Assembly: GCA_029977665.1 (NCBI GenBank)
Contig: JAPOKK010000012.1
Span: 1 to 32,610 of the forward strand
Source: Pseudomonadota bacterium
GTDB taxonomy: Bacteria; Pseudomonadota; Gammaproteobacteria; Ga0077536
Direction of reading: 5' to 3'
Length of the DNA stretch: 32,610 nucleotides
Shown here: positions 4,493-10,043 of the stretch, piece after piece
Numbering within the stretch: position 1 is the stretch's first letter
Layout: each line of letters begins with the position of its first letter
Position numbers and translations under genes: made by a program
The notes under the pieces: generated by a model
Database searches by the model: none
What the model was told of the DNA's origin: nothing
The model's input: the letters and a program-made list of their open reading frames with translations, nothing else

Positions 4493-5284
4493 TCATCCCC
4501 CGGTGAGCCGACGCAGGTAGTCGTCGGGATCGATCTCTTCTTCTCGCGGACGCCGATTGAGCAGATCCTGCACGCGTTGAATGCTGGAACTGCGGACTTC
4601 TTCGACGCTGCCGGTCAACAGGATTCTGCCATGATCGAGCACGGTGATGCGATCGGCGATCTTGAAAGCGCTGTCGAGCTCGTGGGTCACCACGACGATG
4701 GTCATCTGCATGGTGTCGCGCAGCTTGATGATGAGCTCGTCCAGATCGGCCGCGACGACAGGGTCGAGTCCGGCTGACGGTTCGTCGAAGAACAGCAGCT
4801 TGGGGTCCATGACGATGGCACGTGCCAGCGCGGCGCGCTTGATCATGCCGCCCGACAACTGCGCCGGCTTGAGTTCACCGAAACCGCCGAGATTGACCAC
4901 TTCGAGCTTCATGCGCGCGATGATCTGCATGGTCTGTTCGTCGAGCGCGGTGTGCTCGCGCAGCGGCAGCATCACGTTCTCCGCGACGGTCATCGAGCTC
5001 AGCAGAGCGCCGCCCTGGAAAGACACGCCCATGTTGCGCCGTAGCGCCTGGAGTTCGGCCGCGGAGCTCTCGGTGATGTCCATGCCGAGCAGCCTGATGG
5101 ATCCCGAGGTAGGGCGCTGCAGCCCGAGCAGGTGGCGCAGCAGCGTGCTCTTGCCCGAGCCGCTGCCGCCCATGATGACCATGATCTCTCCGGACTCCAC
5201 GCGCAGGTCGACTCGATCGAGGATGCGTCGGCTGCCGTAATGCGTGACGAGTTCGTCGACCTCGATCGCGGCGCCGGTACTCAT
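4493..5284 (-). CDS. MlaF-like ABC transporter ATP-binding protein
   Basis: A 263-residue cytoplasmic ATPase that powers the MCE transporter. Walker A is GGSGSGKST, the ABC signature is LSGGMIKRAALARA (the GGM form is typical of MlaF), Walker B with catalytic Glu is LLFFDEPSAGLDP, and the switch His is in VVVTHEL. The length matches MlaF (about 270). Its ATG overlaps the TGA of the permease gene in an ATGA, so the two are translationally coupled. The C-terminal extension after about residue 230 (IQRVQDLLNRRPREEEIDPDDYLRRL) could correspond to the MlaF tail that swaps onto a neighbouring subunit in E. coli; that is inference. Confidence 0.95.
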   Translation of the reverse strand: MSTGAAIEVDELVTHYGSRRILDRVDLRVESGEIMVIMGGSGSGKSTLLRHLLGLQRPTSGSIRLLGMDITESSAAELQALRRNMGVSFQGGALLSSMTVAENVMLPLREHTALDEQTMQIIARMKLEVVNLGGFGELKPAQLSGGMIKRAALARAIVMDPKLLFFDEPSAGLDPVVAADLDELIIKLRDTMQMTIVVVTHELDSAFKIADRITVLDHGRILLTGSVEEVRSSSIQRVQDLLNRRPREEEIDPDDYLRRLTGG

Positions 5285-6093
5285 CGGTTGAGGAAATAGG
5301 TGAAAGCCATGTCGGCGAGCACGATGTAGGAAATCGCGAGCACTACAGCGCGCGTGGTCGATTTGCCGACGCCCTCGGCGCCACCGCTGACGGCAAAACC
5401 GTTGGTGACCCCGACCAGGGCGATGATGACGCCGAAGACGACGCTCTTGGCGAGCCCCTGGAGGACGTCGTCGGTGGTCATGAAACCGGTCGACTGGTCC
5501 CAGTAGGCGGCGTAGCTGAGGCCGAGCTCGATGTTGCAGAACGCGGCCCCGCCGAGCAGCGCGGCGAAATCGGAGAACAAGGTGACCAGCGGCACCATCA
5601 CGAGCATTGCGATCAGCACCGGCGAGACCAGGTAACGTACCGGGTTGATGCCCATCACGCGCAGCGCGTCGATTTCCTGGTTGACCACCATGGTGCCTAT
5701 GCGCGCTGCCAGCGCGGAACCCGAGCGTCCGGCAATCAGGATGCCGGTGATGAGTGGCCCGAACTCGCGCGTCACCGACAGCGCGATACCGAGCACGACC
5801 TGGGTCTCGGCGCCGAACTGCTTGAGTGTGTGGATGCCCTGAATGGCCAGCATCACACCGATCGCGAACGACAGCACGAAGACGATGGGCAGCCCGTTGA
5901 TTCCGATCTCGACCATCTGCTGCACGGCGGCCGAAAGGCGCACCGGCTGGCGCCGCGACGGACCCAGCAGGATCCAGAAGAAGCTCTCTACAATCAGCGC
6001 GAGGTAGTAACCGAACTCCTCGAGAAGTTCGACGAAAGCCCTGCCGGCGCGCGCGAGCGAGAGCGCGAGCGCCGCCTGGCGCGTTTCAGCCAT
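5281..6093 (-). CDS. MlaE-family ABC transporter permease
   Basis: A 270-residue inner-membrane permease of the MlaE family, which forms the channel base under the MCE ring. Typical segments are visible: an N-terminal interfacial helix, GINGLPIVFVLSFAIGVMLAIQG, EFGPLITGILIAGRSGSALAARIGTM, an EIDALRVMGINPVRYLVSPVLIA loop (the coupling helix to the ATPase), and a C-terminal VGKSTTRAVVLAI segment. Length agrees with E. coli MlaE (260). Its start codon lies inside the preceding STAS gene (8-base overlap) and its stop overlaps the ATPase start, so STAS, permease and ATPase should be made in matched amounts. Confidence 0.95.
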   Translation of the reverse strand: MAETRQAALALSLARAGRAFVELLEEFGYYLALIVESFFWILLGPSRRQPVRLSAAVQQMVEIGINGLPIVFVLSFAIGVMLAIQGIHTLKQFGAETQVVLGIALSVTREFGPLITGILIAGRSGSALAARIGTMVVNQEIDALRVMGINPVRYLVSPVLIAMLVMVPLVTLFSDFAALLGGAAFCNIELGLSYAAYWDQSTGFMTTDDVLQGLAKSVVFGVIIALVGVTNGFAVSGGAEGVGKSTTRAVVLAISYIVLADMAFTYFLNR

Positions 6094-6418
6094 CCGCCTC
6101 GAGGCGAGCAGCGAGGTCTGCGTGGATCGGGAAGACCTTGTCGAGCCGTGCGAGTTCGAGAACGCTCAGCGCGGCTTCGCTGACGCCGATGAGGCCGAAG
6201 CGCAGACCGCCTTTCTTGGCCGTCTGGAAGCCTTCGACGAGGCTCGCCACGCCGGAACTGTCGATGTAGGTGACACCGCTCAGGTCGACCAGCGTGTGGT
6301 GACCCTGCTCGAGACTCGCCAGAATGGCCTTACGCGCATCCGGCGAACAGGACAGATCGACGTCGCCGGTGAGCAGAACGATGTCGTAGCCGTCCTGCGT
6401 CTTCACTTGGTAGGCCAT
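6086..6418 (-). CDS. STAS-domain protein, MlaB position / SpoIIAA-like antagonist
   Basis: A 110-residue single STAS domain. The phospho-acceptor loop is YIDSSGVASL (residues 51-60), with Ser54 or Ser55 equivalent to the serine that SpoIIAA-type antagonists carry. ATG at 6416-6418 is preferred over the adjacent upstream GTG. The gene overlaps the MlaE-family gene by 8 bases, exactly where MlaB sits in relation to its transporter in many bacteria, yet it is preceded by a HATPase kinase-like gene and a PP2C phosphatase gene. MlaB binds MlaF and stabilises the transporter; SpoIIAA-like proteins are switched by a kinase/phosphatase pair. The sequence alone fits both roles, and both at once is possible. 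Confidence 0.9.
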   Translation of the reverse strand: MAYQVKTQDGYDIVLLTGDVDLSCSPDARKAILASLEQGHHTLVDLSGVTYIDSSGVASLVEGFQTAKKGGLRFGLIGVSEAALSVLELARLDKVFPIHADLAARLEADG

Positions 6419-6526
6419 CACACAAACCCCGGAATAGTTTCGTTGTCGTTGTCAGCGGGCCGCGGCGCTCGGGTCACGGCCGCAACCGGGCGGCGACGCG
6501 GCGCGCGCACCGCGCGCGGGCAGCGC
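6419..6526. other. Spacer between STAS and HATPase genes with a GC hairpin
   Basis: The 108-base gap contains a 7-bp perfect inverted repeat GCGCGCG (6501-6507) and CGCGCGC (6511-6517) with loop CAC, eight or more bases beyond the HATPase stop codon on the minus strand. It could limit read-through into the STAS-transporter genes. No promoter was confidently found. Confidence 0.35.
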
Positions 6527-6973
6527 TCACGATTCCGCATGCTGGTCGTCGAGTCGCTTGATCATGCGCAGCACGTGGCCGCGTTCGTCCTGCAGGTGGG
6601 CATAGGCACACTCGTCCATCAACTCCTTGATGAAGAACGTGCCCAGTCCGCCCGGGCGCAGCTCGTCGAGGTCGCGCGGCTGAATCTGCTCGAAATCGAC
6701 TGCGGCCGCGAAGTCGGTGATAACAACCTCGATCTCGCCGCCATTATCGTTTATCTCCAACACGATTTCACCAGAACGATCACCCTTGTAGGCGTGCTCC
6801 ATGATGTTCATGCAGGCCTCGTTGACCGCGATGATGAGATCGGACACGAGCTTCTTCGTCAACGTTACCTGGCTGGCCGCCTGCTGCACCTGGTCGCGCA
6901 CCATCTTGAGGCGTTTGGGATCGGCCGCGAAGCGCAATTCCAGCAGGCGGTTGCTCATGGTCAACAAGGCCAT
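6527..6973 (-). CDS. HATPase_c anti-sigma-factor-type serine kinase (RsbW/SpoIIAB-like)
   Basis: A 148-residue GHKL-fold ATP-binding protein of the kind that phosphorylates STAS antagonists. The N box is NEACMNIMEHAY (residues 51-62) and the G2 box is GGLGTFFIKELMDE (108-121), both well kept. The G1 box, usually DxGxx(F/P), reads ITDFAAAVDFE (86-96): the Asp is kept but the Gly is Ala. ATP may still bind, as some family members vary here, but kinase activity is not certain. Two Met starts are possible (6973 and 6958), neither with a good ribosome-binding sequence. It lies between the PP2C gene (64 bases upstream) and the STAS gene. No sigma factor gene is nearby, so the partner is likely the STAS protein. 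Confidence 0.88.
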   Translation of the reverse strand: MALLTMSNRLLELRFAADPKRLKMVRDQVQQAASQVTLTKKLVSDLIIAVNEACMNIMEHAYKGDRSGEIVLEINDNGGEIEVVITDFAAAVDFEQIQPRDLDELRPGGLGTFFIKELMDECAYAHLQDERGHVLRMIKRLDDQHAES

Positions 6974-7037
6974 GGACTGCGCGGCCGCGCGCGCGGGTGG
7001 AGCCGCCGGCCTGTCACGACTGGGCGTGGGTGAGGCG

Positions 7038-8303
7038 TCATCTCGCCAGGTCCACGAGCATCAGGGTTATGTCGTCATGCGTGGTAAAGCCGTCCTGCCG
7101 CCAGTTCTCGACGATGCCCGTCAGGCGGTTCGCCGGCGGCAGGCTCACGGAGGATTCTATCATCTGAACGACGCCCGCGGTCTCGAGCGGGGTGCCGTTT
7201 TCGTCGGCGCTCTCGCTCAAGCCATCGGTGTAGAGATAGATGGACGCGCCGTCCAGCGGCAGGCGGCTGACCGGGAACTCGATCCCCGCGAGCACGCCGA
7301 GCGGCGGCGCCTCCGCGGCGAGCTCGGCGTAGTCACCGGCCGCGTGTCTGAGCAGGGCCGGCTGGTGACCGGCATTGGCAATCGCGACCTGCCCGCTGGC
7401 CGGGTCGAAGAAGCCGGCGATGATGGTCACGAACATTCCCATGGTCGACGTCTCGCACAGCTCGTCGTTGACGCGGGCCAGCAGCAGCCCGGGATCCCGG
7501 GCCTGCTTCGCCAGGCAGCGCAGCAGGCTCGTCGTCTTCGCCATCAGCAGCGCCGCGTTCATGCCCTTGCCGGAGACGTCGGCGAGCGAGAAGTACACGC
7601 GGCCGTCACCGAGATGCAGGTAATCGTAGAAATCACCCGACACCTCGCGCGCCGGCAGGTTGAGCCCGTGCACCGGCGAAGGCCCCGAACCGGCGACCGG
7701 CAACAGGCTCTCCTGGATCTGGCGCGCAAGCTCGAGTTCCTTGCGCACGCGTTCCTGTTCGACGAGTTCGAGTGCCATGCGCGCATTGTGGATGGCGAGC
7801 GCGGCAGCCGAGGCCACGGTGGTCGCGAGCTGCATGTCGTTCAGATCGAACAGGCCATCGGCGGTACGCTTGTTGAGCAGTTCGAGCGCACCGAGGCACT
7901 GGCCGCGCACCGAGAGCGGCGCGCACAGGATCGAACGCGTGGCGAAGCCGGTGTCGGCATCGACCACGGCGGCAAAGCTCGGGTTGTTGGAGACGTCGCG
8001 GACGATCTTCGGTTCGTTGTGCTGCACGGTCTGGCCGACGATGCCCTGGTCGGGGGCGAGCCTGAGACCGCGAATGTCGACCGGCCCGGCGCATTCGCGG
8101 CAGACCAGCGCCTGGCCATCCTCCTCGAGCAGGAAGATCGACGCCGCCTCGGCGTTGAGATAGGCCATGAAGCGGTCGATAGCGTTGCGCAGCGTTTCGT
8201 CGATGTGCAGCGAACTCGCGAACTCGTGCGTCAGCTTGGCAAGGAACACGGCTGCCCGGTCGGGGCGCGCGTCCAGCAGGCCCGCGGCATCGTCGTCGAT
8301 CAC
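7038..8303 (-). CDS. GAF-domain SpoIIE/RsbU-type PP2C serine phosphatase
   Basis: A 421-residue cytoplasmic phosphatase. A GAF sensor domain (about 20-175) is followed by a helical linker (LVEQERVRKELELARQIQ, about 180-198) and a SpoIIE-type PP2C domain (about 205-420). Metal-binding acidic residues are all present: Asp224 (VSGDFYD), Asp242 (ADVSGKG), Asp360 (YTDGLSE) and Asp410/411 (HDDITL). Such enzymes dephosphorylate STAS antagonists in partner switching. The start is taken as the GTG at 8301-8303, which overlaps the TGA of the DUF1841 gene (GTGA) and places the GAF domain near the N-terminus. The frame stays open further upstream, but that part lies inside the DUF1841 gene and does not look like protein. 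Confidence 0.9.
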   Translation of the reverse strand: MIDDDAAGLLDARPDRAAVFLAKLTHEFASSLHIDETLRNAIDRFMAYLNAEAASIFLLEEDGQALVCRECAGPVDIRGLRLAPDQGIVGQTVQHNEPKIVRDVSNNPSFAAVVDADTGFATRSILCAPLSVRGQCLGALELLNKRTADGLFDLNDMQLATTVASAAALAIHNARMALELVEQERVRKELELARQIQESLLPVAGSGPSPVHGLNLPAREVSGDFYDYLHLGDGRVYFSLADVSGKGMNAALLMAKTTSLLRCLAKQARDPGLLLARVNDELCETSTMGMFVTIIAGFFDPASGQVAIANAGHQPALLRHAAGDYAELAAEAPPLGVLAGIEFPVSRLPLDGASIYLYTDGLSESADENGTPLETAGVVQMIESSVSLPPANRLTGIVENWRQDGFTTHDDITLMLVDLAR

Positions 8304-8731
8304 GGCACGAGCCGCCTGACCTGCGCAAGGTAGGCCTCGGCATCCGGGCCGCGCCCCTCCTGTCCCGCCTGCCACAACTCGTGCGCGAGACAATCCAGCA
8401 CGCGGTGTTCGGCCGCGTGGGCGTCGCCACCGGCAGCGCCGACCACGGCCCGGTAGGCAGCACGGATACCGGGTGGCCGGTCCGTCTGCAGCTGCTCGAC
8501 GAGCGCGATGTGCAGGCCCATGTGCAGGAACGGGTTGCTGCGCCCGTCGCGGCCGTCGAACTCCGCCGCGAGCGCCGCGTCCGGCCGCGCCAGCACGGCG
8601 TGGTACTCGGGATGCGCGGCGATGACGTCGGCGATGAGCCGCTCGAGCGGTTCGAGCGGTTCGCCCGCCTGCATCCTGCGCCATACGCGCAGGAAGAATT
8701 CGCGCGAGTCGTTACGATCGTCGACAAACAT
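8300..8731 (-). CDS. DUF1841 family protein
   Basis: A 143-residue soluble protein of unknown function. The opening MFVDDRNDSREFFLRVWRR and the following EPLERLIADVIAAHPEYHAVL and NPFLHMGLHIALVEQL segments are those of the DUF1841 family, common in beta- and gammaproteobacteria. The ATG at 8729-8731 is chosen because family members begin with MF just before this segment and are about 140 residues long; the frame is open for 25 more codons upstream. No catalytic motif was recognised. It lies 35 bases after nth and shares a GTGA with the phosphatase gene, so it opens the signalling part of the operon. In other genomes it is often next to nth. Confidence 0.88.
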   Translation of the reverse strand: MFVDDRNDSREFFLRVWRRMQAGEPLEPLERLIADVIAAHPEYHAVLARPDAALAAEFDGRDGRSNPFLHMGLHIALVEQLQTDRPPGIRAAYRAVVGAAGGDAHAAEHRVLDCLAHELWQAGQEGRGPDAEAYLAQVRRLVP

Positions 8732-8766
8732 GATCGATGGTCCGCAAAGGTCGCTGACGGCGTGCC

Positions 8767-9411
8767 TCAAACAGTCGCATGGCGATTCTTTTCGCGCCAG
8801 TCGCACAGGTCAAGTACACAACAGTCCGCGCAGCGCGGTTTGCGGGCGAGACAGGTATACCGGCCGTGCAGGATGAGCCAGTGGTGAGCGTCGCGGCGAA
8901 ACTCGGCCGGCACCACCTTGAGCAGTTTCTGCTCGACCGCGAGCGGGGTACGCCCGCGCGCTAGGCCGGTGCGATTGGCGACCCGGAAGATATGGGTATC
9001 GACGGCGATCGTCGGTTCGCCGAAAGCCGTGTTGAGGATCACGTTGGCGGTCTTGCGGCCGACACCGGGCAGGGCTTCGAGCGCGGCGCGCTCGCGCGGC
9101 ACCGCCCCGTCATGCTGCTCGAGCAGGATGCGGCAGGTCTTGATGACGTTCTTCGCCTTGGTGTTGAACAGGCCGATGCGCTTGATGTGCTCGCGTACGC
9201 CCGCCTCACCGAGTTCGAGCATGCGCGCGGGGTCGGGCGCCGCCGCGAAGAGGCCGCGGGTGGCCTTGTTCACGCTCACGTCGGTGGCCTGCGCCGACAA
9301 CATCACGGCAATGAGCAGTTCGAATTCGGACGCGTACTCGAGCTCCGTGGTGGGTGACGGGTTGCGTTCGGCGAGACGCCGGAAGAATTCCTGCCGCGTG
9401 TGCCGGTTCAT
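8767..9411 (-). CDS. nth: Endonuclease III, DNA glycosylase/AP lyase
   Basis: A 214-residue base-excision repair enzyme that removes oxidised pyrimidines and nicks the abasic site. The helix-hairpin-helix is LPGVGRKTANVIL, containing the catalytic Lys; the catalytic Asp is in VDTHIFRV. The [4Fe-4S] cluster ligands follow C-x6-C-x2-C-x5-C (CLARKPRCADCCVLDLC). Length agrees with E. coli Nth (211). The ATG at 9409-9411 overlaps the TGA of the upstream rnfB in an ATGA, so the two iron-sulfur proteins are translationally coupled. Confidence 0.97.
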   Translation of the reverse strand: MNRHTRQEFFRRLAERNPSPTTELEYASEFELLIAVMLSAQATDVSVNKATRGLFAAAPDPARMLELGEAGVREHIKRIGLFNTKAKNVIKTCRILLEQHDGAVPRERAALEALPGVGRKTANVILNTAFGEPTIAVDTHIFRVANRTGLARGRTPLAVEQKLLKVVPAEFRRDAHHWLILHGRYTCLARKPRCADCCVLDLCDWREKNRHATV

Positions 9412-10043
9412 GTGCCGTCGCGCGCCTGGCGTCGCCGGACCGCGGCGAGCACGGTATCGGCGAGTTCGTCCACCGAGTAGTCGGCGAGGTCGAGGTAGCC
9501 GGGGCCTTCCTCCGCCTCGGCGCGCCGTGCGCGGCGCTCGACCAGTGCCTGGTGGCGAGCACGCGCCTGCGCGGCGCGGGCTGCGGCGGCGTGTTCGCCG
9601 TCGTCGTACCCGTCTGCCGCTACCGGGTCGAGGACGATGCAATCCGTCGGGCAGACGGGCAGGCACAGTGCGCAGCCCGTACACCATGCGGCGACGACAC
9701 CGTGGAGCAGCCCGGCGGCACCGACGATGGCGTCGACCGGGCACGCCTGGATGCATTTCGTGCAGCCGATGCAAGCCGGGTCCTCCACGCGCGCGACGAC
9801 CGGCGGCTCGGCGGCGTGCACGACGCCGGTCGGCTGCGGCCGTCCGAGCACCCGGGCGAGCGCATGGCGCACGCGCTCGCCGCCGGGCGGGCAGCCGTCG
9901 ATCGAGACGCCCTGCTCGACCAGCGCCCGCGCGTAAGGCAGGCAGCCGTCATACCCGCAGCGCCGGCACTGGGTCTGCGGCAGGCAGGCGTCGACGCGCG
10001 CGATCAGTTCCGCGCGCGTCGCTTCGGCAGCGTGGGCGGACAC
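9408..10043 (-). CDS. rnfB: RnfB/RsxB-like iron-sulfur protein lacking the membrane helix
   Basis: A 211-residue iron-sulfur protein. Residues 20-50 form the Fes-type four-cysteine site (C-x2-C-x4-C-x16-C, from QCRRCGYDGC). Two ferredoxin motifs follow, CIGCTKCIQACP and CTGCALCLPVCP, each ligating a [4Fe-4S] cluster. RnfB of the Rnf/Rsx electron-transport complex normally begins with a transmembrane helix; here the N-terminus (MSAHAAEATRAELIARVDA) is soluble and no other rnf gene is in the window. It is therefore probably a free-standing electron carrier rather than part of a full Rnf complex here, though other rnf genes may lie elsewhere. The last 65 residues are Ala/Arg-rich and divergent. 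It starts 18 bases after metG and overlaps nth. Confidence 0.88.
   Translation of the reverse strand: MSAHAAEATRAELIARVDACLPQTQCRRCGYDGCLPYARALVEQGVSIDGCPPGGERVRHALARVLGRPQPTGVVHAAEPPVVARVEDPACIGCTKCIQACPVDAIVGAAGLLHGVVAAWCTGCALCLPVCPTDCIVLDPVAADGYDDGEHAAAARAAQARARHQALVERRARRAEAEEGPGYLDLADYSVDELADTVLAAVRRRQARDGT

Follow-up and report, generated by a model that had tools for sequence, protein, structure and literature searches.

A candidate partner-switching module encoded with an MCE-type lipid transporter in Gammaproteobacteria

Switch proteins and transporter genes of the operon

The stretch of DNA analysed here (the window; 32,610 nucleotides, contig JAPOKK010000012.1 of assembly GCA_029977665.1, from a gammaproteobacterial Pseudomonadota bacterium) carries on its minus strand a compact operon encoding, in this order, a DUF1841 protein, a GAF-SpoIIE phosphatase, a HATPase_c_2 protein, a STAS protein, MlaE, MlaF, MlaD, a PqiC-type lipoprotein and a CHASE2 cyclase (Table 1). 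A first-pass annotation had described a GAF-PP2C phosphatase, a kinase-like HATPase and a STAS protein directly ahead of MlaE- and MlaF-like genes, and all of these genes were found in that place. The 8-base overlap that it had reported between the STAS and permease genes (6086-6093) and the DSSG loop of the STAS protein were both verified; the MlaE and MlaF genes share 4 bp.

The three proteins ahead of the transporter make up a candidate partner-switching module: a sensor-bearing PP2C phosphatase, a HATPase_c_2 protein with N-box, G1 and GGLG motifs, and a STAS protein with a DSxG acceptor. The phosphatase, whose gene adjoins the HATPase gene in relatives too, retains the PPM motifs GDFYD, DVSGKG, TDG and HDD. 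Its sensor, attached via a helical linker, varies by lineage, being GAF in some and HDOD in others. The GAF sensor proposed earlier therefore holds for the window phosphatase but not for many relatives, in which HDOD-SpoIIE, with a long helical linker, takes its place (L190, 5765-7453; L098, L129, L133, L171 and L205). Such an arrangement fits the exchangeable-sensor, coiled-coil model for these phosphatases (PMC12143880). In the kinase, E52, N56 (N-box), D87 (the G1 Asp) and GGLG are invariant over 24 alignment rows, an invariant Arg is aligned with an Arg of SpoIIAB, and the best PDB profile match is RsbW (6m36, 9e-21). At many loci, the phosphatase and kinase are seemingly fused in a single open frame (L083, L087, L107, L109, L112, L158 and L174), and at L180 the kinase and STAS lie in frame in one natural open frame.

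The DSSG motif was kept in all 111 STAS sequences, and the loop that contains it, YIDSSG (Y52-G57), was invariant in 30 alignment rows, with Ser55 aligned with the phospho-Ser of SpoIIAA and with Thr52 of MlaB. The protein passes TIGR00377, the model of the anti-sigma antagonist superfamily, and did not pass the MlaB equivalog model NF033618 (26.7 bits against a cut-off of 90). Its predicted fold most closely resembles those of kinase-bound SpoIIAA and RsbV (Z about 17), with MlaB next (Z 12.7). The model has a C-terminal helix (103-110, with a low predicted local distance difference test score) and aligns over 111 residues to SpoIIAA, unlike the short form represented by MlaB.

Table 1. Features of the minus-strand operon, with positions in the window
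Feature	Position	Strand	Remarks
DUF1841 protein	8806-8300	-	Stop overlapped by the phosphatase GTG start (GTGA)
GAF-SpoIIE (PP2C/PPM) serine phosphatase, 421 aa	8303-7038	-	GTG start; Pfam PF07228 6e-41, GAF 1e-16; candidate sensor and STAS-P phosphatase
RsbW/SpoIIAB-like HATPase_c_2 protein	6973-6527	-	PF13581 5e-29; likely start ATG 6958; candidate STAS kinase
STAS protein	6421-6086	-	PF01740 4e-15; likely start ATG 6418, as in homologues; candidate switchable MlaB
DSSG motif, STAS residues 54-57	6251-6262	-	Ser55 codon 6257-6259
MlaE-family permease	6093-5281	-	PF02405 2e-72; TIGR00056 over cut-off
MlaF-like ATPase, 263 aa	5284-4493	-	66-70% identity across two permease lineages; putative STAS target
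MlaF C-terminal extension with DDYLRRL (Y256, L260)	4496-4567	-	Matches E. coli handshake Y261/L265
MlaD/MCE-domain protein	4467-3457	-	PF02470 6e-12
ABC_trans_aux (PqiC-type) lipoprotein	3443-2838	-	PF03886 8e-14
CHASE2-class III adenylate/guanylate cyclase	2624-387	-	PF05226, PF00211; possible second output

Conservation of gene order and exchange of the permease

Conservation of gene order, on which the first-pass annotation had made its reading depend, was borne out. A named genome collection was scanned with the STAS alignment, giving 80 loci, a biased set in that it consists of the top matches to the window protein. The whole order PP2C-HATPase-STAS-MlaE-MlaF-MlaD-PqiC was contiguous at 58 of them, and transporter genes followed STAS at 67. 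These loci include Thiohalobacter, Methylohalomonas, Candidatus Endoriftia and Thiodiazotropha, plus metagenome-assembled genomes labelled Rhodospirillales, Propionivibrio and Rhodocyclaceae; a few assemblies labelled Marinimicrobia or Deltaproteobacteria may be misbinned. At almost every locus, the kinase gene immediately precedes that of STAS. Among related genomes, 32 of 96 contained the kinase; most members of the same family keep the whole order, which is also present in other families with different flanking genes. Synteny of the nth-DUF1841-phosphatase neighbourhood (window 8300-10043), in which the start of the phosphatase gene is coupled to DUF1841 (GTGA), extends through the family and into several others.

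When 370 complete gammaproteobacterial genomes were drawn evenly, STAS orthologues (E below 1e-30, clearly separated from the next matches) were detected in 56 genomes from 30 families, MlaE orthologues in 42 and both in 40 (Fisher p about 4e-38, a figure that ignores shared ancestry). The gene mlaE or mlaF adjoins the STAS gene in 50 of the 56. Since the order recurs across 30 sampled families, it is not due to chance. Outside Gammaproteobacteria, one of three phylum-level matches (L231) shows PP2C-HATPase-STAS-MlaE-MlaF.

Sixteen sampled genomes had STAS without the window-type MlaE, and 10 of these retain mlaF beside STAS. Type II loci (L190, L192 and L099) read STAS-MlaF-MlaE'-MlaD, type III loci (L188, L193, L195 and L200) read STAS-MlaE'-MlaD with mlaF on the opposite strand, and type IV loci (L103, L189 and L194) have STAS-MlaF without a permease. 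MlaA and MlaC were confirmed by Pfam in both type II/III operons scanned (L190 and L188), the former of which encodes an HDOD-SpoIIE phosphatase. MlaE' shares on average 32% identity with the window-type MlaE and 44% with its classical counterpart, while the MlaF of type II and III loci is 66% identical to the window-type MlaF (70% within the window type) and 39% to classical MlaF. In the MlaE tree, MlaE' clustered with classical MlaE at a support of 100, and its grouping with the window type was rejected by the approximately unbiased (AU) test (p-AU 3e-5). In the MlaF tree, all STAS-linked MlaFs fell into one group with a support of 94. MlaF is thus conserved with STAS while the permease changes, so that the regulator travels with the ATPase, as would be expected if STAS acts on MlaF.

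The C-terminus of MlaF bears on the same contact. In Escherichia coli, MlaB contacts one MlaF and also the C-terminal extension (Tyr261, Leu265 and Leu266) of the adjacent MlaF, its Thr52 lies within the MlaF interface, a T52E substitution weakens binding, and the association of MlaF with MlaED requires MlaB (PMC7367683). A Y-x3-L motif at the E. coli handshake position ends all 80 full MlaFs examined (79 by pattern and L138 by eye). The extension is absent from MlaFs paired with STAS-MlaE fusions, in which STAS and permease are physically linked (L036, L209, L213, L215, L217, L220 and L224). The motif supports, without proving, a contact between STAS and MlaF. Together, the permease exchange and this motif point to MlaF as the putative target of STAS, and the earlier interpretation to that effect is supported by these sequence comparisons. 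The varied inputs of the module, set beside its constant STAS-MlaF end, suggest that selection preserves the output rather than the input.

The proposed switch and its alternatives

We consider it probable, though well short of certain, that this is a partner-switching module with an ATP-binding cassette (ABC) lipid transporter, not a sigma factor, as its output, in which STAS, when unphosphorylated, serves as a switchable MlaB and licenses MlaF. The scheme that follows, with its STAS-MlaF binding, STAS phosphorylation, ligand and polarity, is one that we infer. Unphosphorylated STAS would act as MlaB, binding the helical subdomain of one MlaF together with the C-terminal extension of its neighbour; thus bound, it would let MlaF form dimers and engage MlaE. 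The RsbW-like HATPase would bind STAS and phosphorylate the first Ser of DSSG, upon which STAS would leave MlaF and transport would be turned off. On a signal sensed by the GAF domain (HDOD in relatives), the PP2C domain would dephosphorylate STAS and transport would resume. In this way, reversible serine phosphorylation would very probably let cells start and stop the traffic of lipids to the outer membrane.

Several observations weigh against this reading. The mirror topology of the MlaF tree passes the AU test and is formally not rejected (p-AU 0.157). STAS occurs with no transporter genes next to it in six of the 56 sampled genomes and in the sister genus g4, and the transporter-less genomes of the same family have no window-type permease at all; such lineages, with the module but without the transporter, make a second target possible. 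Conversely, one family (G100 and G306) has the transporter without the STAS set beside it, and the MlaF of G100, the only one readable to its end, has a C-terminus that is close to normal (Y to F). Since the handshake motif persists there, loss of STAS cannot be held to remove it, and it is not a clean marker. In E. coli, a T52A mutant of MlaB retained MlaF binding yet lost function (PMC7367683), so a simple release upon phosphorylation may not be the whole story.

The loci without adjacent transporter genes bear most directly on the proposal that the main output is the CHASE2 cyclase (cyclic AMP or cyclic GMP) or another signalling protein, the transporter genes being co-regulated passengers. 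In genus g4 and in G006, the order is (PP2C)-HATPase-STAS-cyclase, and the transporter and permease are absent from those genomes; our best guess is that in the g4 group the module has a second output, perhaps the cyclase. In the window, the cyclase gene follows in the operon, starting 213 bp past the gene for the PqiC-type lipoprotein, and it holds this downstream position in the operon in the nearest relatives as well. A downstream cyclase was found at 14 of the 80 named loci, and other transporter-less loci adjoin FHA, PrpC-like and CHASE2 genes. However, transporter genes follow STAS at 67 of the 80 loci against 14 for the cyclase, nearly all of the latter in the nth-DUF1841 synteny group, and distant lineages carry the transporter but lack the cyclase. 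We therefore regard a cyclase or other signalling protein as the main output as unlikely, though worth keeping in view.

A different alternative keeps MlaF as the partner and takes STAS as a constitutive MlaB, the target of the kinase and phosphatase being a different STAS or nothing that matters for transport. It is in general known that E. coli MlaB works without a dedicated kinase, and STAS directly abuts mlaE or mlaF. This possibility seems improbable given the position of the kinase gene immediately ahead of STAS at almost every locus, the invariant DSSG, and the searches of the host assembly (4.2 Mb, 442 contigs, 100% complete). There, the window kinase is the only short-frame, stand-alone HATPase_c_2 match, every other match lying in an open frame of 311 aa or more, and no stand-alone SpoIIAA-type STAS was found besides that of the window. 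The other STAS matches were only the MlaB of contig C346, a STAS-MlaE fusion on C190, one 737-aa frame and one 680-aa frame. Four MlaE genes are present in this genome: that of the window, a classical mlaFEDC with its own mlaB (C346), the STAS-MlaE fusion operon (C190) and a truncated mlaF-E-D-C contig (C290). The first-pass annotation had held that a separate mlaB serving the window transporter would count against its reading; another mlaB does exist, but it belongs to the separate classical operon.

The polarity of the switch might also be the opposite, with STAS inhibiting MlaF or phospho-STAS being the active form, so that the kinase switches transport on. Polarity cannot be read from sequence, and Bordetella BtrUVW departs from the canonical polarity (PMC8256260). 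The dependence of the MlaF-MlaED association on MlaB and the effect of T52E in E. coli (PMC7367683) argue for the polarity proposed above, and the reverse appears a little more improbable than a constitutive MlaB. We judge a classical anti-sigma circuit with its sigma factor encoded elsewhere to be extremely unlikely. By sequence and by fold, the STAS protein most resembles SpoIIAA/RsbV and the kinase RsbW, but no recognised sigma factor was found among the other window ORFs scanned, in agreement with the first-pass annotation; none of the sigma-B/F/G type exceeded the curated TIGR02980 cut-off in the host genome, and no sigma factor occurs among the recurrent neighbours of related loci.

Returning to STAS as a switchable MlaB, the phosphatase-kinase-STAS-MlaF set could be a transferable 'switchable ATPase' cassette, paired with either of two distinct MCE permease lineages (PqiC-type and classical MlaA/C-type), that in some genomes may act in trans on several lipid transporters, a proposal that we put forward tentatively and hold to be rather doubtful. 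Action in trans is considered because type IV loci have STAS-MlaF without a permease and because the module of G078 lies apart from a MlaF-E'-D-A-C operon. If it does occur, one serine-phosphorylation signal would set lipid traffic across the whole envelope. The module, or STAS, was found without adjacent transporter genes in G015, G021, G029, G078, G143, G207 and G396. Mere relocation of the transporter was rejected as an explanation for the same-family cases, where the permease is absent; G078 does have its operon elsewhere, with an MlaF of the STAS-linked type, and action of STAS in trans is possible there. In G015, G021 and G029, which keep a stand-alone kinase-STAS module, a classical mlaFEDC without mlaB directly after mlaC was detected (L214, L216 and L218). 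The stand-alone STAS might serve these operons in trans; other STAS genes are present in those genomes.

Relation to known systems

The module shares with RsbU-RsbW-RsbV and SpoIIE-SpoIIAB-SpoIIAA of Bacillus the three protein families, the catalytic residues, the DSSG acceptor and the STAS fold. Unlike them, it has no sigma-B/F/G target, its output genes are those of an MCE lipid transporter and its sensors are GAF or HDOD. With MlaFEDB of E. coli and P. aeruginosa, it has in common homologous MlaE, MlaF and MlaD, a STAS gene in the operon and the Y-x3-L handshake motif of MlaF. It differs in that the window operon has a PqiC-type lipoprotein and lacks MlaC, MlaA and a canonical MlaB (types II and III do have MlaA and MlaC), in that its STAS is of the longer SpoIIAA form, and in the presence of dedicated kinase and phosphatase genes. 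STAS-MlaE fusion transporters, such as that on C190, have the MlaE type nearest to the window MlaE and, in relatives, a PqiC-type partner, but their STAS is fused to the permease, their MlaF is without the C-terminal extension and they have no kinase or phosphatase.

Non-sigma partner switches, namely BtrUVW, SypA/SypE and RbaV, likewise combine a PP2C, a kinase and a STAS protein with a non-canonical output. Their outputs are given as unknown or as type III secretion, with no ABC transporter described, and the same review of STAS-only proteins makes no mention of Mla (PMC8256260). In the open-access literature searched, we found no report of a partner switch acting on an MCE/Mla transporter; partner switches and MlaB are each already known, but a conserved operon system combining the two did not come up there. 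The structural work on MlaFB posed as an open question what regulates MlaB and whether phosphorylation of its conserved Thr/Ser ever occurs (PMC7367683); these operons supply kinase and phosphatase candidates in a natural, conserved linkage, making the question directly testable. If the proposed switch is correct, a partner switch would here act directly on an ABC transporter, and fast post-translational control would be added to outer-membrane lipid homeostasis, which bears on barrier function and antibiotic entry in Gram-negative bacteria.

Two arrangements recur at the transporter-less loci. In L085, L089, L092, L095 and L096, HATPase-STAS stands directly before the CHASE2 cyclase, with the transporter and, in g4, the phosphatase missing, which suggests that the output there is a second one or has been replaced. 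Beside L115, L117, L118, L122, L135 and L157, there are FHA and PrpC-like genes on the opposite strand, often with CHASE2 genes, which form a second Ser/Thr signalling cluster.

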